A DNA stretch of 32,361 nt, from positions 51,715 to 84,075 of the forward strand of contig JAPLGM010000032.1 of assembly GCA_026390165.1 (NCBI GenBank). The letters are read 5' to 3'. A program made the position numbers and the translations under genes. Shown here in pieces: positions 14,565-30,682 of the stretch (positions within the stretch are counted from its first letter, which is position 1; the number at the start of each line of letters is the position of its first letter). The DNA is from Campylobacterales bacterium (GTDB lineage: Bacteria > Campylobacterota > Campylobacteria > Campylobacterales > Sulfurimonadaceae). The notes below the pieces were generated by a model. It was not told where the DNA came from, searched no databases, and saw only the letters and a list, made by a program, of their open reading frames with translations.

Positions 14565-15107
14565 TCAGCCGAATAACCCTGTAGAATTTACCGAACTATG
14601 CGGTGCGTTTTCTGTTAAATGGTTCAGGATATACCCCATTTTCTTATACCCTTTAAGCCGTTTAGTGAAACTGCTTTTAAGCAGAGGTACTTCATTATCA
14701 ATAAAATCGATTGCCAGACACTCCTGCCCCTGACGCCCAATACGTCCAAGATATTGAACCATCCGTTCATCATAGGATATTGGCATGGTAAAAATAACCG
14801 TATCCAAATGACCGATATCAATCCCTTCTCCAATGTAACTGCTAGTGGAGAGAATGATCGAGGCTTCGGAGGTTTGAGTGAACTGTTCACGTTTCATCTT
14901 CGTTCCCATCGCTCCATAGAGTAGGAGAGCGTCAATATTCTCAAGCTTGAGATGATGCCATAAACGATTGAGATGTTCGATTCGTTCACTGAGTACTAAC
15001 ACCTTTCGGTGTTTGAGGGTTTTAATCTCATTGATAATCAGTTGATTTCGATCATTGTCTTCACTCAACTCGCCGAGAATCATCGAGAAATGTATGATGC
15101 GCTTCAT
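14565..15107 (-). pseudogene. C-terminal fragment of the broken TOTE-type primase-helicase
   Basis: 180 codons in a different frame from the upstream part, overlapping it by 47 bases. It carries the second RecA-like half of an SF2 helicase: the strand-helix VLVLSERIEHLNRLWHHL, motif V region ILSTSSYIGEGIDIGHLDTVIF and the motif VI stretch MVQYLGRIGRQG. In intact relatives the segment ELSEDNDRNQLI lies well after the DEAH box, beyond motif III (the S/TAT box). Here it follows the DEAH box almost directly, so most of the linker and motif III are gone. The first residues, MKRIIHFSM, are the shifted reading of the DEAH-box region and not a natural start. An active helicase cannot be expected. Confidence 0.75.
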
Positions 15108-16599
15108 CGATAATGATCTGTGAATATTCCTCTATCAGTTGGGGACGGTTTTTGAGAGATTGAAGGGTTGCAATATCTAACGAACCGTTGAGTGACTTTT
15201 TGCCTTTTCCCAATATACCGATAGTTTTACCATCAATAGAAAAGTAGCTCATTAGTCTCTCTTTCCATTGATCGATGAGTGCCGTTTTATTGACTAGAAT
15301 CAGCGTTTTTACGCTTCTTTGTGAGATAATGGCTGAGGCTACCGCTGTTTTTCCAAATCCAGGGGGAGCAATAAGAAGTGCGTAATCGTATTGCATGAGG
15401 GAATTAAAGACATCGATTTGTTGCGGTCGCAGTTCCAATACCAACAGCGGAGTTGCTGTTTTTTCAAGAAGGCGTTTGTCTTGAAGCTCCAGTTTGATTT
15501 TATGTTTCACACCTAATCGGCGCAATGGTTCTAAGAGACCTCTTGGCAGGACAATGTAACGTTCATTGAGATCATAGGTGGAAACAATACGGGGTGTATT
15601 AAATGTAGAGAGACGTTGTTTTTGGCGCATGAAAAACTCAGGGTTATAGAACGATGCCATTCGCTTCAACAGGTTGAGAAACGATTTGCTTAGTCCTTTA
15701 AATTCTACGTAAATGGAATCGTGTAAAACTAATTTTAGCCATTTAGGAGGGGAAAGTTTAACCTTTTCAATTTCCCATGGCATTAATGTTTCTTCGGCTC
15801 CTAAAGATTGTGTATACGTTTGAATCAAAGCACTCAGTCGTGCAGGTGCAATTTTGGAAACACCGTTCAAATAGTGCCATTGATCACTATAGGGTTGAAG
15901 TGTATTGATATCGACGAATACGGTTTTTCCATCATTACGCGAACCGTAGTGCAGTGGCAGAGCAATGAGATTACCCAGTCCATCGTAAGGGACGTAATCT
16001 TGATTGGGGAAAAGGCGATCAAAGCTTTTCATGTCTATACCGTCACTGTGATCCATCGCTTTGGTAATAATAAGGTCACCTAAGATCCGTGCGTCGCGTG
16101 CTCGGACGTTTTGCGAGAATAAAAACCAGATATGTATACCGTTACCCGATTTGGAGATTTCAAACGAAGGGGTTAATCCCATTTCTTTGTATACGGTGCT
16201 AATTGCTCGTGCATCGTTTAAAAAACTCGATTTATCCAAATCGATGGCAAGGAATGAACAAAATGATTGATCTTTTACCGCATAAGTGCCGATACGAACT
16301 TTTCCCTCAAGATGCGATTGGATCACGGCATCGGTTAGTGGAAGATAATCGCTTCCTTGAAAGGTAGCCGTTTTTGGAAAATACCCTTTTTTTAATCCAT
16401 CACCGCTGATCCAGTAGGTAGCATAGACATCTTCTCGACCTACGAAGAGTGATCGGTAGAGGGCGATCTTATCTTCTTTGGTAAGGGCAGAGTGTTTTTC
16501 GAGTTCGCGTTTGATCTGTAAAATATGCGCTTCAATGGAGCGTTTTTGGGTTTCAAGAGAATCGAGTTGTTTTCGTAATCGATCGATATGGTGTTGCAT
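15061..16599 (-). pseudogene. N-terminal part of TOTE-type primase-helicase, frameshifted
   Basis: 512 codons from ATG 16599, which lies two bases past the stop of the ATPase gene. Domain order: a coiled coil at 5-37, an archaeo-eukaryotic primase domain at about 45-265 with the catalytic FLAIDLDKS (Asp120, Asp122) and the SGNGIHIWF histidine (His156), a linker, then the first half of an SF2 helicase with Walker A APPGFGKT (411-418) and IIIDEAHH (495-502). The frame stops ten residues after DEAHH. This arrangement matches the proteins annotated as TOTE conflict system primase-helicases, normally a single chain of about 900 residues. The remaining helicase half is in another frame at 14565-15107. 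The primase half could still fold and be made. The domain assignment is firm; the system's function is not well known. Confidence 0.8.
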
Positions 16600-16601
16600 G
16601 G

Positions 16602-17822
16602 TTAATACAAAAATCCAAAGAGCCAAAGGGGAATTTTATTCTTATACCCTATCTCAATATCATCGGAAGCGACATAGCTTTTAGATAAATCTTTTATTTG
16701 CTTAAATCCTTTGCTTTTTCCCCCTACTTCAAACGTATAGGTGTCATCGACCAAGAAATCTCCTTGCTTTGAGACATAGATTGATTCGTCCAAAAAGCGG
16801 TTTTTTTCTGCGAGAGCATTTTTGATCTGGTTAACGAAAAAGGCCTCACGCATAGAGCCTATATCAACTGAGGAGGTGAGGGCAAATGATAGATTGGTAT
16901 TTTGCATCAAAAGCTTTTCTGGTTTTGAGAGGACGTTATAACCTTTTTCTTTACTTCGAAGTGTATTGATGATTTTTGCTTGTTCGAGATGATTCAGATA
17001 CTCATATACTTTGGGTCTTGAAATCTGGGTCGATTCAGCTAGATTGGTAATATTTGGGATAAATGGGACATTGATAGCTAGGAGATAAAGAAGTTTTTTG
17101 AGCTTTCCAATCTGAGCCATTTCGATACGGTTGATATAGGGTAAATCGGTTTCAAGAATTAGATTGACAACTTGCGTCAGCCGTTGATGAAATCCTTCTT
17201 TATCTTCGAATACAAACGGATAAGCACCATATTCAAGGTACTCTTTGAAATATTTCAACGGTTTGATTTTCTCAGAAATCTTTGTAGCAATCGCAACGTG
17301 GTTTTCCAGTAGGTCTTGTAAGCTTAGTGCCTCATACTCCATGACACCGCTAAGGCTTAAATATTCCCGAAATGATAGATTTTCGAGAGTGTAAATGAGA
17401 CTTCTTCGAGAGAGATCCCCTTTTTGCTTACTGATTTGGAGGATGGAAGAACCTGAAAAGACGATGCGAAGCTCTGAAGCATCATAAATAGATTTGATAT
17501 GCGTTGACCAATCGTTATATTTATGGACTTCGTCGATAAACAATACCTCTCCACCATAACTTTCAAACTCAATAGCAAAGTCATAGAGTGATATCGATTG
17601 AAAATAGGGATTATCGAGTGAAATGTAAAGAGCTTTATCGCTTCCCTCATAATGTTCTTTGATATACTGAAGCATCATTGTTGTTTTCCCTAGACCTCGT
17701 TGACCAAGGATTCCGATAGATTTGGCATCCCAGTTGATTCGGTTATAAAGGTAGCGTTTCTTATCCAACGAGACATTGCGTAGACGTTTGACTTGTTCTT
17801 GGAAAAGAGTTTGTAAACTCAT
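16602..17822 (-). CDS. AAA_14 ATPase with DUF4143 C-terminal domain
   Basis: P-loop ATPase, 406 residues from ATG 17822 (a GTG two codons earlier is too close to the AAAGG ribosome-binding site). Walker A is GQRGLGKTT (40-48), Walker B is VLFIDEVHKY (93-102), and a sensor strand reads IVFSGSSIL. A winged-helix-like middle (NLAESTQISRPKVYEYLNHLEQAKII) and a nuclease-fold-like C-terminal part, with FEVGGKSKG, follow: the usual AAA_14-DUF4143 arrangement. Members are abundant in bacteria and archaea; cellular roles are poorly defined, though some are linked to mobile elements. It lies 40 bases after the recombinase and two bases before the primase-helicase, so all three probably form one transcript. 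Confidence 0.85.
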   Translation of the reverse strand: MSLQTLFQEQVKRLRNVSLDKKRYLYNRINWDAKSIGILGQRGLGKTTMMLQYIKEHYEGSDKALYISLDNPYFQSISLYDFAIEFESYGGEVLFIDEVHKYNDWSTHIKSIYDASELRIVFSGSSILQISKQKGDLSRRSLIYTLENLSFREYLSLSGVMEYEALSLQDLLENHVAIATKISEKIKPLKYFKEYLEYGAYPFVFEDKEGFHQRLTQVVNLILETDLPYINRIEMAQIGKLKKLLYLLAINVPFIPNITNLAESTQISRPKVYEYLNHLEQAKIINTLRSKEKGYNVLSKPEKLLMQNTNLSFALTSSVDIGSMREAFFVNQIKNALAEKNRFLDESIYVSKQGDFLVDDTYTFEVGGKSKGFKQIKDLSKSYVASDDIEIGYKNKIPLWLFGFLY

Positions 17823-18665: not shown

Positions 18666-18692
18666 TTCATTAATACACACAAAGGAGAGACT

Positions 18693-18779
18693 ATGAAAAG
18701 TCATACTATGCCTATTTCACAACCCATTACGCCTAACCGTATCGTGAGCTTCTCTCTCCTCCTGCTAAACCTGCTGTAA
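18693..18779 (+). CDS. leuL: Leucine leader peptide (attenuation)
   Basis: A 28-codon open frame with a strong AAGGAGAG five bases upstream. The last ten codons read SFSLLLLNLL then TAA, giving six leucine codons (CTC, CTC, CTG, CTA, CTG, CTG) within seven positions, right before a downstream hairpin and leuA. This is the layout of leucine attenuators in other proteobacteria, where ribosome stalling at Leu codons when charged tRNA-Leu is low lets the transcript pass the terminator. It is not similar in sequence to the enterobacterial leader. Function is inferred from layout. Confidence 0.75.
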   Translation: MKSHTMPISQPITPNRIVSFSLLLLNLL

Positions 18780-18818: not shown

Positions 18819-18857
18819 TGCCACATCGGGCGCAGTGCGTCCGCACATTGGCATTTT
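18819..18857 (+). terminator. Attenuator-like hairpin between leader and leuA
   Basis: Outer arms TGCCA (18819-18823) and TGGCA (18849-18853) enclose an inner six-pair stem, CGGGCG (18827-18832) with CGTCCG (18838-18843), one pair being G-T. Four T follow at 18854-18857, a short tract. T-rich DNA at 18780-18818 lies before it. An anti-terminator pairing could not be identified by eye. Confidence 0.45.
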
Positions 18858-18887
18858 CATTACTATTGTCATATTAAGGATATCTCT

Positions 18888-20939
18888 ATGCATACGCATA
18901 CAAAATATATGCCGTATCCATCGGTCACATTGGATAAAAGAGAGTGGGCGGATAAATCTGCCACAGTTGCCCCGCGTTGGGTCAGTACCGATTTACGTGA
19001 TGGCAATCAAGCGTTAGCCAACCCGATGGGAATAGAGCAAAAGATCGCCTATTTCAAAGCGTTGGTTGAATTCGGGTTCAAAGAGATCGAGGTTGCCTAT
19101 CCCAGCGCGTCACAAACGGAGTTTGATTTTTGCCGTCGATTGATTGACGAAGGGATGGTTCCTGAGGATGTCACTATTGGAGTGCTTGTCCCCTCGATAG
19201 AGCGTCATATCGTCCGCAGTTTTGAAGCATTGAATGGAGCCAAGCGGATTACCATGCACTTGTACAATCCGACCGCCACCAATCAACGCAGTGTCGTGTT
19301 CCGCCGAAGCCGTGAGCAGATCATCGCGTTGGCGTTAGAGGGTGTGGCGTGCATCAAACGCGAAGCACAGCGCTTTGGTGGAGAAGTAGTATTTGAGTAT
19401 TCGCCGGAGAGCTTTTCGCAGACCGAGTTGGATTTTGCCCGTGATATCTCCAATGCTGTGATCACAGCGTGGGAACCGACACAGGAATATCCGATGATTT
19501 TGAACCTTCCCAATACGTTGGAAGCGTGTTCACCCAACATCTATGCCGATCGTATCGAGTGGATGTCTAAACACATCAAAAACCGTGAGAGCGTCATCAT
19601 CAGCGTTCATCCGCATAATGACCGAGGATGCGCGGTAGCGAGTGCGGAGTTGGCGGTATTGGCAGGTGCTCAGAGAGTGGAGGGGACGATCCTCGGCAAC
19701 GGTGAGAGGGCAGGTAATGTCGATTTGATCACGTTGGCGTTCAACTATTTTTCGCAGGGGATCGATCCGTGTTTGAGAGTAGACAAAGTCGATGAGATCT
19801 TGAGTCGTATTACGAGCATCACAGGTATGCGCGTCGCCGAGCGTCATCCGTATGTTGGTTCTATGATCTACACGGCATTTTCAGGTACTCACCAAGACGC
19901 GATCAAAAAGGGGATGGAACATCACCGAGAGCAAAACAGCCCCACATGGGAAGTGCCTTATTTGGCGATCGATCCGCGTGACATCGGCAGAGAGTACAAA
20001 GACTCGATCCGTATCAACTCCCAATCGGGCAAAGGGGGCGTGGCGTATGTCTTAAAAGAGATCTACGGTATCGAAGTCCCCAACGAGATGCAGACGAAGC
20101 TTGCCGACGAGGTAAAACGGATTTCGCAAAAACGAGGCGGTGAAATCAGCAGTGACGAGGTGCTTGGGATATATCAGGGGATGATGAAGCGTCATGAAAA
20201 CAGCTGGAACGCCTCAGAGTACAACAAACATGCCGCATTTGTCTCGAATTTGGCATTGCCCGTTGTCGATTTGCTTGCTCCGATAGAGGGAGAGGAAATC
20301 TTAGATTTAGGATGCGGTGAGGGGACATTGGCACTTGAAATCCAAAAAAGCGGTGCGAGAGTAACGGGAGTCGATTTGAGTCACGAGATGGTAAAAAATG
20401 CACGTGCCAAAGGGATCGATGCTATGGTTATGAGCGTGACGGAGTTGGAGTTTAAAAACCGATTTGATGCGGTCTTTTCCAATGCGGTGCTTCACTGGGT
20501 AAAAGAGAGTGAAACCGCCGTTAGAAACATTTATGAAGCATTGAAGCCTAATGGGAGATTTGTCGCAGAGTTTGGAGGGTCAGGTAATTGTAAAACAGCC
20601 GTAGATGCGATGAAAGCAGTGTTTAAAAATCACCCTGAATTTGGAGCGTTTGAAGACCCTTGGTACTTTCCGAGTGTCGAAGAGTATCGTGCCCTCTTGG
20701 AGTCGTGCGGTTTTAGAGTAGAATATATCGAATTAATCCCGAGACCAACCCCAGTGGATGATATCGCCAACTGGCTTGATCTTTTTGCCAACGGTGTAAC
20801 GGCTCATTTCAGTCGTGAAGAGTTTAGTGTGTTTAAAGAGGAAGTTAGTAGGATTACGAAACCGAAGTTGTACGATGAAAACGACGGTTGGCATGTTGAT
20901 TATGTACGTTTGAGAGTTAGAGCGGTAAAAGAGGTATGA
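18888..20939 (+). CDS. leuA: 2-isopropylmalate synthase catalytic region fused to a SAM-dependent methyltransferase
   Basis: First step of leucine synthesis: acetyl-CoA plus 2-oxoisovalerate to 2-isopropylmalate. 683 residues; ATG 18888 has AAGGA seven bases upstream. Residues 1-431 match the longer (type 2) LeuA: STDLRDGNQ (33-41), HPHNDRG (from His241, metal ligands), GNGERAGNVDL, and the linker up to SSDEVLGIYQG. The C-terminal LeuA dimerisation/leucine-binding domain expected next is missing. At Met432-Met433 (20181-20186) the frame continues into a class I methyltransferase, with EILDLGCGEGTLALE (motif I at 472-479), VTGVDLS, and FSNAVLHWV, resembling trans-aconitate methyltransferase. 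The fusion is uninterrupted. Loss of the regulatory domain suggests insensitivity to leucine feedback; control may rest on the leader. An internal start at 20184 could also release the methyltransferase. LeuA assignment is firm, methyl acceptor unknown. Confidence 0.88.
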   Translation: MHTHTKYMPYPSVTLDKREWADKSATVAPRWVSTDLRDGNQALANPMGIEQKIAYFKALVEFGFKEIEVAYPSASQTEFDFCRRLIDEGMVPEDVTIGVLVPSIERHIVRSFEALNGAKRITMHLYNPTATNQRSVVFRRSREQIIALALEGVACIKREAQRFGGEVVFEYSPESFSQTELDFARDISNAVITAWEPTQEYPMILNLPNTLEACSPNIYADRIEWMSKHIKNRESVIISVHPHNDRGCAVASAELAVLAGAQRVEGTILGNGERAGNVDLITLAFNYFSQGIDPCLRVDKVDEILSRITSITGMRVAERHPYVGSMIYTAFSGTHQDAIKKGMEHHREQNSPTWEVPYLAIDPRDIGREYKDSIRINSQSGKGGVAYVLKEIYGIEVPNEMQTKLADEVKRISQKRGGEISSDEVLGIYQGMMKRHENSWNASEYNKHAAFVSNLALPVVDLLAPIEGEEILDLGCGEGTLALEIQKSGARVTGVDLSHEMVKNARAKGIDAMVMSVTELEFKNRFDAVFSNAVLHWVKESETAVRNIYEALKPNGRFVAEFGGSGNCKTAVDAMKAVFKNHPEFGAFEDPWYFPSVEEYRALLESCGFRVEYIELIPRPTPVDDIANWLDLFANGVTAHFSREEFSVFKEEVSRITKPKLYDENDGWHVDYVRLRVRAVKEV

Positions 20940-20964
20940 AATAGCCCTGAATTGTATATGTCTC

Positions 20965-21027
20965 ACTCCCAAGCTCCAGCTTGGGAGTGTATATGTTAGT
21001 CTGCATTCCCAACGAGGACGTTGGGAA
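20965..21027. repeat. Two REP-like palindromes
   Basis: Palindrome 1: ACTCCCAAGCT at 20965-20975 with AGCTTGGGAGT at 20978-20988 (11 bp, two-base centre). Palindrome 2: TTCCCAACG at 21006-21014 with CGTTGGGAA at 21019-21027 (9 bp, loop AGGA), followed by CGAGGG. Both resemble the widespread family of short GGGAAC-type bacterial palindromes. They lie 25 bases after the leuA stop; palindrome 2 lies inside the 3' end of the HEPN gene. Confidence 0.65.
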
Positions 21028-21706
21028 CGAGGGATGATGCACTTTCTTGTTTATAAATCTTATCATTAATGAATTTATTTCCCATTAAAATCACTTCTTC
21101 GAGAAATTTTTCAACATCAGCTATATATTCTTCTAGCCTGGGGATTACAAGGTCTCTTCCAAATTCTTCAAAGGATTTGTTACCATGAGCTAGCGTGTTT
21201 CTTCCATCTTTAATTGCTTTCAACTTTTCTCCAAAGGATTCAGATATCACAATTCCATATTTTTTCATGACACTGCGAATTGATCGTGCATCAAGATTTC
21301 CACTATATAGTTGATAACTCTCTATCATTTCTGAATATGGAACATTAAACGTTCCTGTACCACGCAAAAGATCGACAGTATGATGTAATACATCTATCGA
21401 GTTATGAATATCAGCTCGTTTTTCCTTATGCTTGTAAAAATATATTAATGCAAGATCTTTAATAGATCTGGAAAGATCATCGTAAAGAACATTGTTTGCA
21501 TTGATCTCTGCATGTAATTTAGTCAATGTTTGAGTTATTGTTGATTCGATAATATTATAAAGATTTATAATAACACTTGAACGGAGAACAGGAATATTTA
21601 TTTGATTAGGGGATGTTACATTTCCATCCTCTATGTCTTTGATTAGTTTGATGAGGCCTGTAGCCTCAAACATCCTTAACTTAAAATCTTGCTCAACAGA
21701 ATACAT
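20996..21706 (-). CDS. HEPN-type nuclease-like protein (MAE_28990/MAE_18760 family)
   Basis: Probable toxin-like RNase partner of the DUF262 protein. 236 residues, helical. The HEPN signature Rx4-6H is RNTLAH at Arg169-His174, within DGRNTLAHGNKSFEEFG, which is characteristic of this family; an N-terminal stretch (SSVIINLYNIIEST) matches its first helix pair. Start ATG is 3 bases after the DUF262 stop, with AAGGAA inside the end of that gene, so the pair is translationally linked. The last 16 residues (ESASSLVPNVLVGNAD) are encoded by a REP-like palindrome and probably are not part of the native protein. RNase activity is inferred from the motif; the target is unknown. Confidence 0.75.
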   Translation of the reverse strand: MYSVEQDFKLRMFEATGLIKLIKDIEDGNVTSPNQINIPVLRSSVIINLYNIIESTITQTLTKLHAEINANNVLYDDLSRSIKDLALIYFYKHKEKRADIHNSIDVLHHTVDLLRGTGTFNVPYSEMIESYQLYSGNLDARSIRSVMKKYGIVISESFGEKLKAIKDGRNTLAHGNKSFEEFGRDLVIPRLEEYIADVEKFLEEVILMGNKFINDKIYKQESASSLVPNVLVGNAD

Positions 21707-21709
21707 TGA

Positions 21710-22849
21710 TTATTTCCTTACCAACATATCTCTAATATAGTTGATTCTCCCAGCCAATTTTTGCTGTTTATGGGATTGATTTGCCACATGAGTATTCTTT
21801 TTAAACTCGGGGTCGATCAGATTCTTGTATATTTCTTCTTTGTTATAATTTTCGAAATTCAAGTTTGATCCAAGCTCCATTATTGCCATGTATATACCGA
21901 TGGAAATTGCCTCAAATACAGACCTTTTAGTTTGAGGGTTTTCCCTGTGTCTATACCCATATGGAAAAATATTTTTGACTACATTATTAACACTATCAAT
22001 TTGATTTTTGTATTCGGATAGCTTTTTTTCGAGCTTCTCAGGATTTAGCAAAGAAAGCTCTTTATTCTTGTTATCTAGATAGTTATCAAGAAAATCAGCC
22101 AAGCTTCCAGATATTCCGCTTTGATATTTTTTACTTTCAGAAAGTGCAAAAAATCGCAATAAAAGCTCTTGCTTTTCTTGTCTCTTTTCAAGCCACTTAT
22201 CTACTTCAACCAATTCAGAAAAGCTTTTACTAGTTTCTACATAGTCATAGATAAATTTAGTAAACGGTCCCGTATATATACCCTTTCTCTTCTCCATAGG
22301 CTTCAATAGATCGCTGCCTCGGTTAATTCGCTCAAACATATCTTTTTTAATATCATCAGTTGTTTCTTCAGACAAAATAATAAATCTAAGAGCGGTATCT
22401 AAAAACTTACCTTTCCTACTACTTTCTAGATCATTAAAAGTGATTCCATTTGCATTCGTTAAAGACTCAAGTCCCGTTAGTACCAAGCTGTTTTCTATGA
22501 AAGCATGAATGGCGCGGACTCGCTGTGAACCGTCGACGATCTCCCAAGCACCATCACCATTTTCTGCAACAAAAATAAAAGGAATTGGCAAGCCTAATAA
22601 AATCGACTCAATAAGTTTAGAGGATCTCTTTTCGTCCCAAGTGAATTCTCTTTGATATTCCGGAACAAACAAGATATTTCTCTTTATGTTTGTATTTTTT
22701 CTTTCCTCTTCATCTGTATCTGAATATTCAATTCCATCTGTATACTTATCTGATATATATTCAACAGTCAAATCTCGCATGTCATAGCGAACGTCTCTGC
22801 GTTTAATATATATTTGCTCTTCTAAAGTTTTTGAATCAATGGTACTCAT
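21710..22849 (-). CDS. DUF262 (GmrS/ParB-like NTPase-nuclease) domain protein
   Basis: 379 residues from ATG 22849, with TAGGAGTT upstream. The DUF262 core is PEYQREFTWDEKRSSKLIES (63-82) and WEIVDGSQRVRAIHAF (102-117), with the family DGxQR at 106-110. Proteins of this kind are found in GmrSD type IV restriction and other conflict systems, where the ParB-like fold binds or cuts nucleic acid using NTP. There is no C-terminal DUF1524 HNH domain here; the C-terminal half is a long helical region. The following gene encodes a HEPN-type protein, so the effector may be the HEPN partner. The pair sits among accessory genes and is visibly AT-rich, suggesting transfer. Biological role is inferred. 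Confidence 0.8.
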   Translation of the reverse strand: MSTIDSKTLEEQIYIKRRDVRYDMRDLTVEYISDKYTDGIEYSDTDEEERKNTNIKRNILFVPEYQREFTWDEKRSSKLIESILLGLPIPFIFVAENGDGAWEIVDGSQRVRAIHAFIENSLVLTGLESLTNANGITFNDLESSRKGKFLDTALRFIILSEETTDDIKKDMFERINRGSDLLKPMEKRKGIYTGPFTKFIYDYVETSKSFSELVEVDKWLEKRQEKQELLLRFFALSESKKYQSGISGSLADFLDNYLDNKNKELSLLNPEKLEKKLSEYKNQIDSVNNVVKNIFPYGYRHRENPQTKRSVFEAISIGIYMAIMELGSNLNFENYNKEEIYKNLIDPEFKKNTHVANQSHKQQKLAGRINYIRDMLVRK

Positions 22850-22876
22850 AATATAAAACTCCTATAAAATATTTTA

Positions 22877-22948
22877 ATTCGAAATATTTCTAAACATTCT
22901 ACACCGTTTTTCTTAAAACAATTTCCGCAAACACTTTAACCGCAGGTT
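22877..22948. repeat. Direct repeat copy 1: MocR gene 3' end
   Basis: This 72-bp stretch, which covers the last 16 codons of the MocR gene, its stop and 22 bases beyond, recurs without gaps at 30611-30682 in the same orientation with 61 of 72 bases matching. Confidence 0.8.
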
Positions 22949-24269
22949 CGATCTCCTCCATCTCGAATCCCCCGAATCCCATCCGAATCGCGTCCCATTC
23001 ACCCCCTGAGTTCTCTTTTGCAAAATAGAGCTTGATCCCCGCTTCTTCGGCTTTTTTTCGTAGGATGTCGTAATCGATATCGTAAGTAGGGCGGATATTG
23101 ATCGAGAGACCTCCACCTTCGCTGAGGATATGTATCGAATCACCCAAATATTTGATGAGCATCTGTTTCATCAGGTCGTGTTTCTTGCGGTTTAGGTTTC
23201 GTACCCGTCGCAAATGACGTTCCCAATGCCCCTCGCGCATGAACAGCTCCAACGTCTTTTGGGTCATGAGGCTGACACGGGAAAACGTGCCGTGAAAGGA
23301 GCGGTATCGATCCATCAGATGAGTAGGCAGTACGATATATCCGACACGCAAAGCAGGGGAGAGGGCTTTTGCAAAGGTGCCGATGTAGATTACTCTCTCA
23401 CTGCTGTCGAGTCCTTGGAGTGAGGGGATCGGTCGGGAGCGGTAGGTGAGTTCGCTGTCGTAGTCGTCTTCGATGATGTAGCTGTCGTTCTCTTTTGCCC
23501 ATGCGAGGAGTTTTAGACGGTTGGTGATGGGCATAGCCGCTCCTGTGGGGTACTGGTGCGAGGGGGTGATGTAGACCACGCGTGCATCGGACGCGGATAG
23601 CTCATCGAGGAGGAGTCCGTTTTCATCGACTCCTATGGGGGTAATATCATAGAGGCGGTGGGCGAAAACCTTTCGGGCAATATGGTAGCCGGGATGCTCG
23701 ATGGCAAAATGTGGGTGAGTCGGACGGAGAATATCGGCGATCATACTCATCGAGTCGATAAATGCCCCAGTAACGATAATGTGAGAAGCGTCGCACCGCA
23801 CGCCACGAAGTTCGGTCAAATACCGTGCTATTTCAGCTCTCAATCCAAACTCCCCCTGCGGATCGGGATAGGTACCCATATCGAGGGTGTCGTCTATGGC
23901 GCGATTATAGAGCCGTTTCCAGAGTTTGAGGGGGAAGACCTCTTTGGAGAGGCGGACGGGGTAAAAGTTGTAGCGGTAGGTGATGGCGGGTGTGTCGGTA
24001 GGCTCTAGCAATGCAGGTTTCCCGAGCGGATTAAAATCGGCATCGGCGACGTAATAACCGCTTTTGGGACGGCTCTCGATGTAGCCCTCCGCGTAGAGCT
24101 GGCTATAGGCGGATTCGACGGTGTTTTTGCTGATGCGGTACTCTTGGGAGATTTTGCGGATCGAGGGGAGTTTGCTCCCGATGGCATGTGTGGTCGTGAT
24201 GTCGTGTTTGAGTGCTTCGTAAAGCTGGATATGGAGAGGTATTTCGGAAGTTGCGTCGAGGAGATACAT
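22899..24269 (-). CDS. MocR/PdxR-type transcriptional regulator (GntR wHTH plus aminotransferase-like domain)
   Basis: PLP-responsive regulator, 456 residues; TGAGGT lies eight bases before the ATG. Residues 10-78 form a GntR winged helix (HIQLYEALKHDI, then KLPSIRKISQEYRISKNTVE and SRPKSGYYVAD). Residues 95-450 are a fold-type I aminotransferase-like domain with the PLP-binding lysine at Lys301 (GTFAKALSPALRVGYI) and EDDYDSELTYR. A MocR typically senses pyridoxal phosphate and acts on a divergent gene; here the neighbour at 24359 is a PNP-oxidase-like flavoprotein, a common MocR partner. It is unlikely to be an aminotransferase enzyme. The last 16 codons are repeated at 30.6 kb. Confidence 0.9.
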   Translation of the reverse strand: MYLLDATSEIPLHIQLYEALKHDITTTHAIGSKLPSIRKISQEYRISKNTVESAYSQLYAEGYIESRPKSGYYVADADFNPLGKPALLEPTDTPAITYRYNFYPVRLSKEVFPLKLWKRLYNRAIDDTLDMGTYPDPQGEFGLRAEIARYLTELRGVRCDASHIIVTGAFIDSMSMIADILRPTHPHFAIEHPGYHIARKVFAHRLYDITPIGVDENGLLLDELSASDARVVYITPSHQYPTGAAMPITNRLKLLAWAKENDSYIIEDDYDSELTYRSRPIPSLQGLDSSERVIYIGTFAKALSPALRVGYIVLPTHLMDRYRSFHGTFSRVSLMTQKTLELFMREGHWERHLRRVRNLNRKKHDLMKQMLIKYLGDSIHILSEGGGLSINIRPTYDIDYDILRKKAEEAGIKLYFAKENSGGEWDAIRMGFGGFEMEEIEPAVKVFAEIVLRKTV

Positions 24270-24293
24270 AAACTGACCTCATAATTTTTAAAT

Positions 24294-24342
24294 ATTTTGT
24301 CACTTGTTTAGAGTGCAGATTGGCGATATAGTATCACAAAAT
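24294..24342 (+). promoter_or_regulatory. Promoter and candidate operator between MocR and the flavoprotein gene
   Basis: TTGTTT at 24304-24309 and TATAGT at 24327-24332 are 17 bases apart and face the flavoprotein gene. They are flanked by an inverted repeat, ATTTTGT at 24294-24300 and ACAAAAT at 24336-24342, which extends imperfectly on both sides. A MocR-type dimer could bind this pair. Confidence 0.45.
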
Positions 24343-24358
24343 TTTTGAGGAAAGCGAT

Positions 24359-24976
24359 ATGAGACGATCAGAATTTGAAGTCACCGACCCGCAAGCCATC
24401 GAATCGGTATTGAGTGAGTGCGAGTATGGGGTATTGTCACTTATGAGCCGTGGTGAGCCTTATGGAGTTGCGGTTAACTTCGCCTATCGTGAGGGGGCGG
24501 TGTACTTTCACGGTAGCATTGAGGGGCGAAAGGTCGAAGCGATAGGCGAGGGTGCAAAGGTAGCTTTTTTGGTCGTGAAGCCTTATGCCTATATCCCATC
24601 GTATTTTAGCGATACGAGTGCGGCATATCCCGCGACACAGTTTTTTACATCGGTGCATATGAACGGTGAAGCGATACGGGTAAAAGATGAGCGAGAAAAA
24701 GCGTTCGGATTGACTGCTTTGATGGAGAAAATGCAACCAGAGGGGAAATACGACCCCATTGATGCGGCAAACCCGATTTATACCAAGATGATGGAGCTAA
24801 CGGGGGTCTATAAAATCGTACCGAACGTGATGACACTCAAAGTCAAAGCGGGGCAAAATTTACTGAAAGAGCGGTACGATACTCTTATCAAACACATAGA
24901 AAAGCGAAACGATTCAAGTGATAGCTCAACGATTCAGCTGATGCGTCAATTTCATAAAAAAGCGGATGACAGATGA
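24359..24976 (+). CDS. FMN-binding split-barrel protein, pyridoxamine 5'-phosphate oxidase family (Nim-like)
   Basis: 205 residues with GAGGAAA five bases before the ATG. The N-terminal split barrel is visible (YGVLSLMSRGEPYGVAVNFAY, then YFHGSIEGRKVEAI and AFLVVKPYAYIP), of the NimA/heme-utilisation-like subgroup rather than true PdxH. Such proteins bind FMN, F420 or heme; the substrate is unknown. It is divergent from the MocR gene, which probably controls it. Its stop overlaps the ATG of the methyltransferase gene (ATGA at 24973-24976), so the two are coupled. Confidence 0.8.
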   Translation: MRRSEFEVTDPQAIESVLSECEYGVLSLMSRGEPYGVAVNFAYREGAVYFHGSIEGRKVEAIGEGAKVAFLVVKPYAYIPSYFSDTSAAYPATQFFTSVHMNGEAIRVKDEREKAFGLTALMEKMQPEGKYDPIDAANPIYTKMMELTGVYKIVPNVMTLKVKAGQNLLKERYDTLIKHIEKRNDSSDSSTIQLMRQFHKKADDR

Positions 24977-25803
24977 ATAATGAAGAACAAACGATTAAAG
25001 ATAATATCAAAAGTACTTTTGACAATGTAGCCACAAGCTATGATAGAAATCAGCAATTTATACTATCAGCCAAAAAAATGGTCGATTTGATTCATTTTGA
25101 AAACGATAATTTGAACATTTTAGATTTATCGACGGGGACAGGTCATATCGCGATAGAACTTGCCAAAAAGTTTCCAAAGGCAAATATTTATGGTGTCGAT
25201 ATTTCCGAGGAGATGCTCAATATAGCCCGATTAAAGACAAAAGAGCATGGGATAAACAACATCACCTACTTGGTTCAAGATGTGGAAAATCTGAATTTTG
25301 AAGATATGAAATTTGATCTCATTACGTGCGGATACGGGCTGTTTTTCTACCCAAATATGGAAAAAGTCGTTAGCGATGTTTCTGAGCGATTGAGCGATGA
25401 GGGGAAATTTGTTTTTTCAACCTTTACGGATCAAGCTTTTCAGCCGTACTCCAAAATATTTTTAGAGTTGTTGGAACAAAATTACAATATCGCGCCACCG
25501 AAGCGGATAGAAAAAAGACAACTGACGACGCAAGATGAAATAGAAACGTTATGTGCTCATATTGAATACGATAGTTTGGAAATCCATGATATTGAGATTG
25601 TGTTTCCGATGGAGATTAATGAATGGTGGCAACTCCTTAACAGTACGGGATACAAGGGATTATTAAATCAGTTGGAATCCAATTATTCTCAATTTGAAAA
25701 AGAATATATAGAGTATTTGCAATCAATTTCAAAAGACAACTGTATCGATTTTAATGCGAATAGTTTGATTTCTATCGTGTCTAAAGTAGATTCATCCCGT
25801 TAA
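24973..25803 (+). CDS. Class I SAM-dependent methyltransferase (UbiE-like)
   Basis: 276 residues. Motif I is ILDLSTGTGHIAIELA (residues 49-64) and the acidic loop is YGVDISEEMLNIA, followed by DLITCGYGLFFYPN and LSDEGKFVFSTF. The N-terminus (STFDNVATSYDRN) resembles the UbiE/COQ5 group. The acceptor cannot be told; quinone biosynthesis is not implied by the neighbours. It overlaps the flavoprotein gene upstream. There is no close resemblance to the methyltransferase half of the LeuA fusion beyond the shared fold. Confidence 0.85.
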   Translation: MNNEEQTIKDNIKSTFDNVATSYDRNQQFILSAKKMVDLIHFENDNLNILDLSTGTGHIAIELAKKFPKANIYGVDISEEMLNIARLKTKEHGINNITYLVQDVENLNFEDMKFDLITCGYGLFFYPNMEKVVSDVSERLSDEGKFVFSTFTDQAFQPYSKIFLELLEQNYNIAPPKRIEKRQLTTQDEIETLCAHIEYDSLEIHDIEIVFPMEINEWWQLLNSTGYKGLLNQLESNYSQFEKEYIEYLQSISKDNCIDFNANSLISIVSKVDSSR

Positions 25804-25847
25804 AAGCCGATAAAAGGCACAATTTTTTATAGTAAAAAGGCAATGTT

Positions 25848-26606
25848 ATGACCGCATCAAACTTCAATATCTCAGATTATCTTGTCCGTATCGGCTACGA
25901 TGGGGAAGTGCGTCCGGATATCACAACACTCACTCAGCTTGTACAAAAGCAACTACGAAGCATCCCGTTTGAAAATACCGAAGTGCAGGCGGGGAGAATC
26001 CCTTCTATGATTCCCGAAGATATTGTGGATAAAGTGCTGATACGCAAACGCGGCGGATACTGCTACGAGATCAACGGCGTGTTTGCGATGGCGCTCAGTG
26101 CTATCGGTTTCGAGTGGTATTTCGCGGGGGCACGTCCGATGTTTTATCCTATGCGTCGTCCTAAAACTCACATGGTAGTGATCGTCCGTGTAGGTGGGAG
26201 AGATTATCTATGTGATACGGGATTCGGCGGATACGCACTGCGCGCGCCGATAGAGATCGTGGAGGGTGAAGCGGTGCAGGACGGCGATCGTTTCCGCATG
26301 GAACTGATCGATGGCGAATACGTGCTCAGTTCTCTCGTGCAAGATGAGTGGCAACGTCAATACGGCTTTGCTCTCCAACCGCAGGAGTGGATTGAGTTTA
26401 GCCTCGCGAACTATTTCAACGCTACCCATCCCGATACGATCTTTACCCAAAAGAAACTCGCGATCATGCAAACACCGAATGGGCGTAAAATCCTCGTGGA
26501 TAATGAACTCAAACTCATCGAAGAGGGGAAATTGGAGCTATTGAAAGTCGATTATGAGAGTGCTTTAAAAGAGTATTTTTGTTTAAAGCTTTGGGAGATA
26601 AATTAA
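25848..26606 (+). CDS. Arylamine N-acetyltransferase
   Basis: Transfers acetyl from acetyl-CoA to arylamines or hydrazines through a cysteine intermediate. 252 residues. The catalytic triad is visible: Cys72 in RGGYCYEING, His108 in KTHMVVIV and Asp123 in LCDTGFGG. The N-terminus DYLVRIGYDGEVRPD and IPFENTEV also fit. AAGGCA precedes the ATG. Its TAA stop shares one base with the ATG of the hotdog gene (26606), so they are co-expressed. Confidence 0.92.
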   Translation: MTASNFNISDYLVRIGYDGEVRPDITTLTQLVQKQLRSIPFENTEVQAGRIPSMIPEDIVDKVLIRKRGGYCYEINGVFAMALSAIGFEWYFAGARPMFYPMRRPKTHMVVIVRVGGRDYLCDTGFGGYALRAPIEIVEGEAVQDGDRFRMELIDGEYVLSSLVQDEWQRQYGFALQPQEWIEFSLANYFNATHPDTIFTQKKLAIMQTPNGRKILVDNELKLIEEGKLELLKVDYESALKEYFCLKLWEIN

Positions 26607-27022
26607 TGGATATATTAAAAATCCCCTTTGTCGAAAAAGTGGGGGTCAAACAAGATGAAAAAGGTTTAAAACTCATCTTTCGCTCAGACAACCTAAATCA
26701 TATCGCTACCGTACACGCAAGCGCACAATTCACTCTAGCAGAAACGGCAAGCGGTGAGGCGTTGCAGAGACTTTTTCCCGATTTGGTTGGCAAAGTTATC
26801 TCAGTATTGCGCGATTCACAAATCAAATTCAAAAAACCGACCACCGATACCATCTATGCGATAGCTACCGTGAGCGATGAAGAGATAGAGACATTTAAAA
26901 CTGGATTGGATAAAAAAGGGCGTGCAATGATCGGTGTAGATGTCGAGCTAAGAGATGAGAGTGAAGTTGTGGTTTGTATCGGGAGATTTACGTGGTTTGT
27001 GCAAATGATGGATGGACAATAA
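26606..27022 (+). CDS. Hotdog-fold protein (DUF4442/YiiD C-terminal-like thioesterase)
   Basis: 138 residues from ATG 26606 (GGGAG upstream; a longer frame from 26579 would lie in the NAT coding region and has no support). The helix HASAQFTLAETASGEAL and the strands VLRDSQIKFKKPT and RAMIGVDVELRDESEVVV fit the hotdog family used in acyl-CoA thioesterases. Known DUF4442 members are mostly uncharacterised. Translationally coupled to the acetyltransferase; a shared acyl-CoA theme is possible but unproven. Confidence 0.65.
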   Translation: MDILKIPFVEKVGVKQDEKGLKLIFRSDNLNHIATVHASAQFTLAETASGEALQRLFPDLVGKVISVLRDSQIKFKKPTTDTIYAIATVSDEEIETFKTGLDKKGRAMIGVDVELRDESEVVVCIGRFTWFVQMMDGQ

Positions 27023-27023
27023 G

Positions 27024-27095
27024 ATGATTATCCAATATGCCCTTGCGGATGCGTGTTTATTTGAGATAAAGATAAAAAAAGAAAAACAATGTTAA
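27024..27095 (+). pseudogene. Possible truncated ORF after the hotdog gene
   Basis: A 23-codon frame (MIIQYALADACLFEIKIKKE then QC and stop) begins two bases after the previous stop and overlaps the next gene by seven bases. The first eleven residues look like the start of a normal protein and the rest is lysine-rich and degenerate, which suggests a truncated gene. The parent family cannot be named with confidence. Confidence 0.2.
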
Positions 27096-27526
27096 ATAAT
27101 ATCTTGAATTTCATGCAAATCACAGAAAATATAGCCTCATCGGGACAGCCGGATGAATCTCAATTCGCCATAATTGCCAATGCCGGATATGATGTAGTTA
27201 TCAATCTCGCGATGCCGAATTCAGAAAATGCGATACCCTATGAGGAAGAATTGGTTACTTCTAAAAATATGGTCTATATTCATATTCCAGTTCCGTTTGA
27301 TAATCCTGAACTTTTTCATGTGCGATCATTTATTAAAGCCATGGAGACTTTTTCGGATAAGAAAATCTGGATACATTGTGTAAAAAACTATAGAGCATCA
27401 GCTTTTTTATATCATTACTTACGTAAATCACGAGGGCTTAGCGCTACGGAGGCACAAAAAGCGATACTTCCATCATGGGAACCGAATGAAATATGGCAAC
27501 GGTTTATGAGTCTTGATTCTAATTAG
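27089..27526 (+). CDS. Protein tyrosine phosphatase-like protein (DUF442-type)
   Basis: 145 residues. The active-site loop is WIHCVKNYRASAF, with Cys97 and Arg102 (CX4R), as seen in the beta-lactamase-hydrolase-like/DUF442 phosphatase group rather than the CX5R of classical enzymes. The N-terminus (ENIASSGQPDESQFAIIANA) is also characteristic of this group. Asp71 (PVPFDNPE) may be the general acid. AAAGAA precedes the ATG. Substrate unknown. It is separated by 27 bases from the VOC gene. Confidence 0.75.
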   Translation: MLNNILNFMQITENIASSGQPDESQFAIIANAGYDVVINLAMPNSENAIPYEEELVTSKNMVYIHIPVPFDNPELFHVRSFIKAMETFSDKKIWIHCVKNYRASAFLYHYLRKSRGLSATEAQKAILPSWEPNEIWQRFMSLDSN

Positions 27527-27553
27527 GTATGTGCATACAATAAAGGGGGAAAT

Positions 27554-27961
27554 ATGAAACCGAGAATTAGCATGATTACATTAGGTGTCCAAGATATGGT
27601 TCGTTCCATAGCATTTTATGAAAAATTAGGTTTTGTTCGTCAAAACGATGATAAAGAGGTCGCATTTTTCGCACTGAATGGTTCATGGCTTGGTCTTTTT
27701 GGACGTGAAGCACTTGCTAAGGATGTGCAGGTAGAATCCGGTGATTGTCAATTTTCAGGGATGACATTAGCCCATAATGTAGAGAGTGAAGCAGAAGTTG
27801 ACGAAGTTTTTGCCCATGCGATTGCTTCAGGAGCCACCATAGCCAAGGAACCTCAAAAAGTTTTTTGGGGTGGATATAGCGGTTATTTTAAAGATCCGGA
27901 CGGATATTTTTGGGAGATAGCATACAATCCGTTTTTTTGGATTGGACCTAAAGACGAATAA
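27554..27961 (+). CDS. VOC family (glyoxalase/bleomycin resistance-like) protein
   Basis: 135 residues in two beta-alpha-beta-beta-beta modules: MITLGVQDMVRSIAFYEKLG opens the first and VFAHAIASGATIAKEP lies in the second, ending with GYFKDPDGYFWEIAYNP. The closing Glu in WEIAYNP is the expected metal ligand, but the N-terminal module lacks the usual histidine, so metal binding may be partial. AAAGGGGG precedes the ATG. Function may be dioxygenase, lyase or binding; cannot be decided. Confidence 0.85.
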   Translation: MKPRISMITLGVQDMVRSIAFYEKLGFVRQNDDKEVAFFALNGSWLGLFGREALAKDVQVESGDCQFSGMTLAHNVESEAEVDEVFAHAIASGATIAKEPQKVFWGGYSGYFKDPDGYFWEIAYNPFFWIGPKDE

Positions 27962-27971
27962 AGAGACATAC

Positions 27972-28457
27972 ATGAAAAATAAATTGCATTTACTATGCGG
28001 AAAAATGGCTTCCGGTAAATCTACCTTATCTAAAAAGCTAGTGGTAGAACATAGCGCCATAGCTTTGTGTGAAGATGAGCTTTTGGCAAAGCTTTATTCT
28101 GAAGAGATCAAAACGATCCAAGATTATGTCAGATACTCAGAACGTCTAAAAGAGGCGATTCGACCTCATCTGATCGATCTATTGCGAAATAGTATGAATG
28201 TTGTGATCGATTTTCCGGCAAATACACAAAAGCAACGAGAGTGGTTCAAAGAAATTTTAGAGATTGCAAATGCTGATCATATTCTCCATTATGTAGATAA
28301 GTCCGATGATGTATGTAAAATGCAGTTGCGAAAACGAAATGAGGGATTACCCAAAGATGCCCCTTTGATTTCAGAGGAAGTATTTGATGCGATCACTAAA
28401 TATTTTGAGCCGCCTCATGAAAATGAAGGGTTTAATATTATTCGATATACGTATTAA
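27972..28457 (+). CDS. P-loop kinase-like protein (AAA_33 family)
   Basis: 161 residues from ATG 27972 (AAGAGA a few bases upstream; an earlier in-frame start would overlap the VOC gene). Walker A is GKMASGKST (10-18), followed by ALCEDELLAKLYSE and the second acidic strand VVIDFPANT, the arrangement of the nucleoside-kinase-like AAA_33 group that includes chloramphenicol phosphotransferase and zeta-toxin relatives. The closing LRKRNEG is a lid-type motif. Substrate unknown. It ends the plus-strand run of small enzymes. Confidence 0.8.
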   Translation: MKNKLHLLCGKMASGKSTLSKKLVVEHSAIALCEDELLAKLYSEEIKTIQDYVRYSERLKEAIRPHLIDLLRNSMNVVIDFPANTQKQREWFKEILEIANADHILHYVDKSDDVCKMQLRKRNEGLPKDAPLISEEVFDAITKYFEPPHENEGFNIIRYTY

Positions 28458-28562: not shown

Positions 28563-30491
28563 TTAGCACTTTTCCATTTTGTTAATAATATTTTCAACTA
28601 AATAAGTCTTGAACTGAGTTAGTAGAAAATTGTTTAATTTTTTCTTATCTGAAGTTTGCAGATATGTATCTAAATTAGTTTTTATATCTTTCCAAAAATT
28701 TAATTCATCAGTTAAATAACAATAAAATAATTTATTATTTAAATATTTATTATCACTATATCTTGAATGTAATATTTCACCTAATCTTGAAATATTTTTA
28801 TTTTCAATTGTTGTCAATAGTTTTGTAAAATTAGCAGGATTCAAACGACTTAGTATTGGAGTTGATTCAAAATCTTTTAGCAAAAAATGTATTAAAAATT
28901 TTTCATCTAGCTGTTTTATTGATTCTAAAAAATTATTTAATGATTGCTGTTGTTTGTCAATTTCTTCTATTTCATAAATGCTTTTATTTTTTTCTATAAT
29001 TTTTAAAAAAATGTCTCTAAAATCTTGATCATCTTCACCCATATAACCTAATCCGGTTGCATTAAATCTTATGCTAGATTCAAAAAGGTTATTTTTCCAA
29101 TTTTGATGATTTTGATATTTATCAGTAATACAAGTTTCAACCTGTTTTTTAATGTCTTCTACTGTAAGCGAACATAGTTGATTTTTACTAAAAAATATAA
29201 GTAATGCAATGACATGAATAAAATGTTCAGGAATATCGTATTCGCAATTTTTAAATTTATTAAGTACATCATGAAGGTTTTTAGTAAAATCTTCATCTGA
29301 TAACTGTCTATAATGCCATATCTTAACCCAAGATGGTTGCTTATTTTCTTTTTTTTCTAAAAAGAAAGACAAGTTACTTATTAATTCATTTAATTCTTCT
29401 TGTTGAATTGAGTTATCTAAAAGAATCTTAATCCAATTTTTTCCATCAAATAAAGGATTGTTTTTAATATTGTATTTTTCATACACTTTTTCAATATTTG
29501 TTTTTTCTTTATTTTTATTGTCTGAAAAATCCCATAATATTGTAGGTCTTTCTGATAATTCTTCTCTTGTCAAATTTGCACTTTTTAACTCAATTGAAAT
29601 TGCAAAAAAATTATTTATCAAAATTGGAACAAATTCTTCATGCTTCAAATACTCTTCATCAATATTTTTAGTAAAATATTCAAAATCGAATAATATTTGA
29701 GAAATATGTCTTAAATTATTATAGTTTGCTTTTTCATAATTATCTTTTATGATTTGTATATTTATATTTAATATTTTTTTTGATAGATTAGTTTTACTGT
29801 CTATAAAAGAAGCTAATATATGTTCAAAAGAATGTTTAACTTCAAAGGTTTTACCAATGACTTTTTCTTTAAACTCTTTATATTCAGTATTAATTATTTT
29901 TTCTTCATTTGCTAATATTATGACTTTGAAATTTGATTGTTCTACTAAATAGTTTATGTACCCTAATACTTCTTTTAAATTTATTTCTGTTCTTTCCAAG
30001 TCATCAAAAATAAATACTATTTCTTGTTTTGAGTTTTTATTTTCAGAAAAAAAATCTAATGGATTAAACGTTTTTAAATCAATATTTGCTGTTCCATCTT
30101 TATTACCATCTTGATTCCAATCAAGATTGACACCTAGTTTGAGTGCACCTTTTAGTATATTACCAGCGAGTTTTGCATACTTAGAACCTAATAATGGATG
30201 TAAATTTTGGAAAATTTCTTCATCTATTGAATTGGTATTTTTTAGCCCAAAAAGACTTATTTTTATAAATTTAATAGTGTCATTTTTAAATTCATCGATA
30301 AAATTTTCTATAAAATATGTTTTACCACTTCCCCATTTCCCACTCAGTAAAATGGCATATTCAGGGTTTGAAAGTATTAAATAATTAGATAAATATTCTT
30401 TGATGTGGTTATTTGGACTAATAATGTTTTTTTCTGCATTCATTTTTGTACCTGCTATTTTATATAATAAAGATTTTAACTTTTTAATCAT
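28563..30491 (-). CDS. KAP-type P-loop NTPase
   Basis: 642 residues. An N-terminal region with no clear membrane helix precedes Walker A GKWGSGKT (51-58) and Walker B EIVFIFDDLERTE (157-169), the latter typical of KAP NTPases. A long helical C-terminal region follows with no recognised domain. KAP proteins are often part of anti-phage or membrane-associated conflict systems. The gene is far more AT-rich than its neighbours, with many AAT/AAA/ATT codons, suggesting recent transfer. AGGTGA lies about 13 bases before the ATG, a longer spacing than usual. It has no partner on the same strand nearby; a stand-alone defence role is an inference. Confidence 0.8.
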   Translation of the reverse strand: MIKKLKSLLYKIAGTKMNAEKNIISPNNHIKEYLSNYLILSNPEYAILLSGKWGSGKTYFIENFIDEFKNDTIKFIKISLFGLKNTNSIDEEIFQNLHPLLGSKYAKLAGNILKGALKLGVNLDWNQDGNKDGTANIDLKTFNPLDFFSENKNSKQEIVFIFDDLERTEINLKEVLGYINYLVEQSNFKVIILANEEKIINTEYKEFKEKVIGKTFEVKHSFEHILASFIDSKTNLSKKILNINIQIIKDNYEKANYNNLRHISQILFDFEYFTKNIDEEYLKHEEFVPILINNFFAISIELKSANLTREELSERPTILWDFSDNKNKEKTNIEKVYEKYNIKNNPLFDGKNWIKILLDNSIQQEELNELISNLSFFLEKKENKQPSWVKIWHYRQLSDEDFTKNLHDVLNKFKNCEYDIPEHFIHVIALLIFFSKNQLCSLTVEDIKKQVETCITDKYQNHQNWKNNLFESSIRFNATGLGYMGEDDQDFRDIFLKIIEKNKSIYEIEEIDKQQQSLNNFLESIKQLDEKFLIHFLLKDFESTPILSRLNPANFTKLLTTIENKNISRLGEILHSRYSDNKYLNNKLFYCYLTDELNFWKDIKTNLDTYLQTSDKKKLNNFLLTQFKTYLVENIINKMEKC

Positions 30492-30610
30492 TCTGTATTA
30501 TGTTCACCTAAATATTCTACACTCACGATATGCCATTTTGCCAAAAAATCACAAGATAATTGGACATTCAAAATGACCTAATATCAGAAATATTGAACCA
30601 AAATCTTACA

Positions 30611-30682
30611 AATTGAAATATTATAAAATATTTTACATTGTTTTTCTTAAAATAATTTCCGCAAACACTTTAACGGCAGGTT
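30611..30682 (-). pseudogene. Remnant of a second MocR gene tail (direct repeat copy 2)
   Basis: Reading the minus strand, this stretch encodes PAVKVFAEIILRKTM and a stop, nearly the same as the end of the MocR protein at 22899 (PAVKVFAEIVLRKTV). The similarity extends 25 bases past the stop, so it is a DNA duplication and not a convergent coding match. There is no start and the frame closes upstream at the end of the amidotransferase gene. Confidence 0.75.

Follow-up and report, generated by a model that had tools for sequence, protein, structure and literature searches.

A LeuA-methyltransferase fusion in Sulfurimonadaceae behind a predicted leucine leader-peptide attenuator

The window, by which we mean the whole stretch of 32,361 nucleotides of DNA analysed here, carries a gene in which the catalytic region of 2-isopropylmalate synthase (LeuA) is joined in one frame to a class I SAM methyltransferase. 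The fusion is a new architecture made of known enzyme kinds, and no report of it was found in a search of open-access papers. Leucine feedback seems to have been exchanged in this two-domain chain for leader-peptide control. The reading we prefer, tentatively and at somewhat less than an even chance, is that the gene encodes an isopropylmalate synthase that is free of feedback and induced by leucine starvation, and that the methyltransferase attached to it is a carboxyl O-methyltransferase which esterifies isopropylmalate or a product close to it.

Structure and authenticity of the fusion

The gene and its parts are as follows.
18888..20939, + strand: LeuA-methyltransferase fusion gene, 683 aa (ORF, Pfam, phmmer, homologues, dN/dS)
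18972..19799, + strand: LeuA catalytic barrel, HMGL-like, residues 29-304 (Pfam; residues compared with M. tuberculosis LeuA), with metal ligands D38, H241 and H243 and the further residues R37, H124, S172, E174, N206, P208 and T210
19863..20180, + strand: post-catalytic subdomains I and II, residues 326-431, with H335 and Y358 (Pfam IPMS_D2, 326-390)
20184..20936, + strand: class I SAM methyltransferase domain, residues 433-683 (Pfam, phmmer, structure match)
20964..20989, + strand: strong terminator-like hairpin 3' of the fusion gene, with a U-poor tail, also a palindrome between convergent genes

The 683 codons contain no internal stop. Pfam profiles match at residues 29-304 (HMGL-like, E 3e-66) and 326-390 (IPMS_D2, E 4e-33), class I methyltransferase profiles above their cut-off span about 458 to 611, and the same search found no match to LeuA_dimer (PF08502) in the protein. 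By phmmer, residues 13-425 align to M. tuberculosis LeuA (1sr9) and residues 429-681 to a single whole methyltransferase chain (3ccf), and in an AlphaFold model (mean pLDDT 80) the N-terminal and C-terminal parts resemble the same two proteins. A sequence-only reading of this DNA had described one uninterrupted 683-codon frame with a LeuA catalytic region followed by a methyltransferase, on which ORF, Pfam and phmmer agree, and its statement that the methyltransferase stands in place of the leucine-binding domain is borne out by the absence of PF08502.

Full-length homologues in one frame, 72-95% identical, are present in ten other Sulfurimonadaceae genomes, which belong to Sulfuricurvum (G065, G044, G064, G069 and G058), genus g7 (G019 and G017) and genus g17 (G219, G224 and G225, all one-contig genomes with the fusion intact). 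One of the copies, WP_013449937.1, which is annotated only as 2-isopropylmalate synthase, lies on the S. kujiense plasmid pSULKU02 (a complete record); the genome that has it, G044, is of the same genus as the Sulfuricurvum-like genome of the window (G000, 2.64 Mb). The fusion is also found in an Arcobacteraceae MAG (L031, 57%). Since so many intact homologues exist, including those on pSULKU02 and in one-contig genomes, the fusion is real and an assembly or frameshift artefact at the junction, which the earlier reading had considered, is ruled out. Purifying selection acts on both halves. Within Sulfuricurvum, pairwise comparisons give a dN/dS of about 0.05-0.07 in the LeuA half and 0.06-0.10 in the methyltransferase half, the latter being looser in g17 (0.26-0.36).

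In the LeuA tree, L031 falls inside the Arcobacteraceae clade (100/100), and in the methyltransferase tree its second half clusters with Arcobacteraceae methyltransferases that stand alone (98/94). Both trees place the Sulfurimonadaceae fusions elsewhere, and thus the same two domain families have been united on at least two occasions, both times at the same end of LeuA. Among the Sulfurimonadaceae, copies with and without the fusion are interspersed. A chance truncation-fusion, the other origin that had been proposed from the sequence, is unlikely, given the conservation of the fusion and its two or more separate origins.

The LeuA half and its clade

The LeuA half sits in a clade of second LeuA copies of Campylobacterota that lack the regulatory domain (53 proteins in the sample), and the branch that splits this clade from all 28 sampled regulated LeuA has a support of 100/100. 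Most members are unfused and end at about 433-457 aa, just past subdomain II. An ordinary LeuA bearing PF08502, one per genome, was found in 55/55 checked genomes with a clade member, so that the fusion as a genome's sole LeuA is ruled out; this constant company of a regulated LeuA is counted in favour of the preferred reading. The search for a second, regulated leuA suggested by the sequence-only reading thus found one in the window genome, L001 (C13; 565 aa, 53% identical, behind a murG-like ORF), which is the only PF08502 match there, and the fusion protein is a paralogue alongside it.

Residues R80, D81, E218, H285, H287, H379 and Y410 (M. tuberculosis numbering; roles of the residues compared here from PMC11532901 and PMC12961565) are identical in 81 aligned sequences, fusions included. 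All four residues of the ketoisovalerate pocket (L143, S216, N250 and P252, in the same numbering) are retained in the window protein, which makes the pocket of the isopropylmalate synthase type; a MAM-like enlarged pocket is ruled out, S172 and P208 of the fusion protein being present and not changed to Gly. With these residues in place, the LeuA half probably has isopropylmalate synthase activity. It shares with LeuA of the yeast/M. tuberculosis type (NCBIfam PRK03739, TIGR00970) the barrel, subdomains I and II and the metal and substrate residues, but has the methyltransferase instead of LeuA_dimer and falls in a clade apart, which is marked by a residue signature not shared with that type. 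Leptospira IPMS LeuA2 (4ov4) and plant methylthioalkylmalate synthase (6e1j) are likewise paralogues without the leucine feedback domain (PMC11532901), whereas the fusion is only about 25% identical to them, carries a methyltransferase and has pocket residues that are not of the MAM type.

About ten positions are altered in nearly the whole short-LeuA clade, several of them beside the pocket (Q145P, S171P, A253N, V255L, M257A and G222Q, M. tuberculosis numbering). These changes favour a reading in which the LeuA half now uses a different 2-oxo acid and takes part, together with the methyltransferase and varying downstream genes (TauE, LysE, SnoaL-like), in making a small specialised metabolite that is secreted. 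Pairs of a LeuA-like enzyme and an O-methyltransferase have precedents in the cystargolide/belactosin pathways (PMC11408123) and in the pantaphos cluster, where the synthase is paired with a predicted O-methyltransferase (PMC7858074), and the variation of the downstream partner genes fits as well. However, the specificity residues of the first shell are of the isopropylmalate synthase kind, the leader encodes Leu, and no conserved biosynthetic cluster was seen, the fusion standing alone in the window, which leaves this reading fairly unlikely. Against the preferred reading, removal of the regulatory domain from M. tuberculosis LeuA reportedly disrupts substrate binding, as Huisman is said to have found in 2012. 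A second LeuA paralogue of G065 (L165, 6170-7351, - strand) has an internal in-frame deletion that includes the segment of the subdomain I catalytic His; despite this its leader is intact, and a methyltransferase gene and a TauE gene follow.

Leucine leader and hairpin

Upstream of the fusion gene, in a region that the sequence-only reading had passed over, the DNA alignment gives the order Shine-Dalgarno, leader ORF, U-rich stretch, hairpin and the gene's own Shine-Dalgarno.
18680..18692, + strand: Shine-Dalgarno region of the leader peptide, AAAGGAGAGAC, invariant in 14 loci, with a predicted stem in the consensus fold
18693..18779, + strand: leader peptide ORF, MKSHTMPISQPITPNRIVSFSLLLLNLL*, whose reading frame and Leu codons are kept in 14 loci via synonymous changes
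18820..18852, + strand: terminator-like hairpin before the fusion gene, z -3.6, with compensatory changes at three stem pairs
18877..18880, + strand: Shine-Dalgarno AGGA of the fusion gene, from the sequence, conserved in the alignment

The leader peptide ends in SLLLLNLL*, its Leu codons lying at 18756-18767 and 18771-18776. Across these 14 loci, changes in the core Leu codons are synonymous (e.g. CTG to TTA) and leave the residue as Leu, while other codons drift. The leader Shine-Dalgarno at 18683-18690 is complementary to 18753-18760 within the Leu codons, and a stem is predicted between them. The leader hairpins tested fold at z -2.7 to -4.1, with compensatory changes at three stem pairs, and the U-run behind the hairpin at 18820-18852 is short in the window (TTTT) and 5-7 T in relatives. 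Folding of the leader region found no competing antiterminator, a point against the preferred reading. A SAM or other known riboswitch upstream of the fusion gene was considered and dropped, as an Rfam search gave no match. The near-perfect palindrome ATCCTTACATGTAAGGAT lies in addition between the leader hairpin and the LeuA start in L026, L027 and L033, and is absent from Sulfuricurvum leaders.

Leucine leaders occur before the short-LeuA paralogue in four lineages. Dissimilar Leu-rich leaders precede the paralogue in g17, in many Arcobacteraceae, the fused L031 among them, and in Sulfurospirillum (with Val as well as Leu); a subset of Arcobacteraceae short-LeuA copies has no Leu leader, which counts against the preferred reading. 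Before regulated leuA, a Leu-rich leader was found in 0/20 genes (at most 5 Leu in 9 codons), and an ATG-started ORF with at least 6 Leu in 9 codons turns up in 1.5% of random stretches. In family f4, methyltransferase genes, including two fused to a COMT-like domain, have leaders ending in SALLLSFFLLSL*, that of L134 ends in TALLLLPLHCVS*, and a strong hairpin with a U-run follows the leader in L129 and L131. Leucine control is tied to both fusion partners, together and apart, because such leaders stand before the paralogue and before the f4 methyltransferase alone.

Leucine leaders are known in the phylum, since LeuL of C. jejuni has Ribo-seq support (PMC11955535). Like LeuL-type attenuators, as in C. 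jejuni, the present leader is a short ORF that contains a run of Leu, and here a hairpin comes after it; it differs in standing before a LeuA paralogue, and in f4 before a methyltransferase, rather than before regulated leuA, and in having no Rfam match. Judged from conservation and predicted folds, leucine attenuation very probably controls the fusion gene. The link of the methyltransferase fusion to leucine metabolism, which had been drawn from the domains, gains independent support from the leader. An enzyme without leucine control had also been suggested; the regulatory domain is indeed absent, but control has probably moved from feedback inhibition to the leader-peptide attenuator.

The methyltransferase half

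The SAM-site motifs DLGCGEG (glycine-rich motif I) and VTGVDLS (acidic residue) are present and conserved. The best named profiles for 17/17 scanned relatives are trans-aconitate methyltransferase (Tam) and BioC, and the best NCBIfam equivalog scores are 66-74 bits against cut-offs of 185-320 (Tam, BioC), so that the domain is not assigned to either family. The relation to small-acid carboxyl methyltransferases proposed earlier holds in the sense that these are the nearest named families, though all below cut-off. Yeast Tmt1 and Tam share the class I fold, Tam profiles match all the scanned relatives, and Tmt1 acts on 3-isopropylmalate under leucine/amino-acid starvation, whereas the scores here are far under the equivalog cut-off, Tmt1 is a separate protein, and the activity here is predicted. 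CysG and BelI also belong to pathways with a LeuA homologue and an O-methyltransferase (PMC11408123), but as separate proteins, and a His-His-Asp metal site like theirs is not evident in the present domain, in which the motif reads LHW at the place where a His pair might be expected (judged by eye).

Close relatives (52-65%) of METHYLTRANSFERASE stand alone in Arcobacteraceae and other families, also in genomes without short LeuA, and in two f4 genomes a close relative is fused behind a COMT-like methyltransferase domain. These COMT fusions (L131, 493-1809, + strand; L132, 5468-6787, + strand) hold two methyltransferases per chain, with a Leu/Phe-rich leader upstream. The substrate of the methyltransferase need not come from LeuA, since the enzyme is COMT-fused in f4 and alone without short LeuA elsewhere, and many short LeuA copies lack such a methyltransferase, which counts against the preferred reading. 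The unlinked methyltransferase was found in 7/24 sampled Arcobacteraceae genomes with short LeuA against 0/18 without (Fisher p 0.013), and the same association across the phylum sample, fusions left out, has p 7e-5; these p-values are only a guide because shared ancestry is uncorrected. The gene directly after short LeuA in Sulfurospirillum, and after the second copy in G065 (L165), encodes a methyltransferase that is of the same broad class but belongs to another subfamily.

The methyltransferase occupies the exact place of the regulatory domain, and it might have replaced it as a regulatory or dimerising module (e.g. for SAM sensing) with little catalysis of its own. Such a role is highly improbable: the SAM-binding motifs are intact, the domain is equally conserved fused or alone, stand-alone relatives exist, and unfused short LeuA do without it. 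Another reading is damage control, in which feedback-free synthase and induced LeuBCD make unwanted elongated acids of the norvaline/norleucine type in leucine starvation and the methyltransferase traps these by-products, as Tam traps trans-aconitate. The Tam-like character of the domain, the leucine attenuation of the f4 methyltransferase even without a LeuA paralogue, the aminoacyl-tRNA editing protein behind the fusion in part of g17 and the LysE-type exporters in Sulfurospirillum speak for it; the physical link between the two domains points to channelling of the main product and not to clean-up, and the tRNA editing gene is not conserved beside most copies, so that damage control is improbable.

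Proposed pathway

In the preferred reading, a scarcity of charged leucyl-tRNA would raise expression of the bifunctional enzyme. Ribosomes stalled on the leader Leu codons would prevent termination, which is why the fusion gene is presumably expressed in leucine starvation. The LeuA half would then convert 2-ketoisovalerate and acetyl-CoA to 2-isopropylmalate, uninhibited by leucine, and the methyltransferase half would O-methylate a carboxylate of 2-isopropylmalate, of 3-isopropylmalate (after isomerisation) or of isopropylmaleate (after dehydration). Whether the methyltransferase does act on a LeuA-pathway acid is, in our estimate, an even matter. The methyl ester would leave the leucine pathway as a signal, a trapped by-product or a precursor, and might be exported where an exporter gene adjoins; TauE or LysE exporters do so in several genomes, which is counted in favour of the preferred reading, and export as such is somewhat doubtful.

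In yeast, both 3-isopropylmalate and isopropylmaleate are substrates of the methyltransferase Tmt1, and the ester is secreted as a signal in starvation (PMC3197675, PMC4684349); CysG and BelI methylate 3-isopropylmalate in the beta-lactone pathways of cystargolide and belactosin (PMC11408123). In the literature found, methylation of leucine-pathway acids is described for these two cases. A bacterial signal or metabolite pathway in which leader-read leucine shortage leads through feedback-free isopropylmalate to a released methyl ester, with an adjacent exporter in some genomes, is quite unlikely; if true, it would be a prokaryotic counterpart of the yeast's secreted 3-isopropylmalate methyl ester. 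Repeated independent fusion and leucine leaders on both partners give a testable prediction, namely that these bacteria methylate an acid of the leucine pathway.

Genomic neighbourhood

No same-strand gene follows the fusion in the window. Elsewhere the next gene often overlaps by 4 nt or abuts; it encodes a TauE/SafE exporter in L006, L018/L033 and L165 and a SnoaL-like protein in S. kujiense and relatives, and in Sulfurospirillum MOSC and LysE genes come after the methyltransferase. No conserved neighbourhood that names a pathway was found across the families compared. An AraC regulator common to LeuA and methyltransferase in Arcobacteraceae was ruled out, only the DNA-binding part being alike. 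A gene for an aminoacyl-tRNA editing domain protein lies directly behind the fusion in part of g17 (L159, 9701-10174, + strand; the same gene in L014 and L015), and several Arcobacteraceae have a homologue of it close to their LeuA paralogue.

The region looks mobile, with resolvase and defence genes in the window and the plasmid copy in S. kujiense, and the methyltransferase has another fusion partner in f4, both of which would suit a neutral or accidental fusion of two neighbour genes with no metabolic link. Such an accident is very improbable, given that the same pair was fused independently at least twice, that a second methyltransferase subfamily adjoins short LeuA, that leucine leaders stand on both partners and that selection is purifying. 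An integron cassette array around the fusion gene was also considered and dropped, as no regularly repeated attC-like element was seen.

Other features of the window were noted in passing. A TOTE-conflict-system primase/helicase (AEP-TOTE) at 14565-16626 (- strand) looks disrupted because its helicase part runs on in a different frame, in a second ORF that overlaps the first. Immediately downstream of the fusion, and facing it convergently, 20996-22849 (- strand) encodes a HEPN-domain protein beside a GmrSD_N (DUF262-like) protein, a pair that is defence-like. A KAP-family P-loop NTPase at 28563-30491 (- strand) is perhaps part of a defence island. A MocR-type regulator and a divergent run of small enzymes (PNPOx-like, methyltransferase, arylamine N-acetyltransferase, thioesterase-like, glyoxalase and kinase-like) occupy 22899-28457, and parts of this set lie near LeuA paralogues in L027, L028, L032 and L034. 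An 83-nt direct repeat, 83% identical, at 22866-22948 and 30600-30682 takes in the 3' end of the gene for the MocR-type regulator, and its second copy looks like a remnant of that gene.
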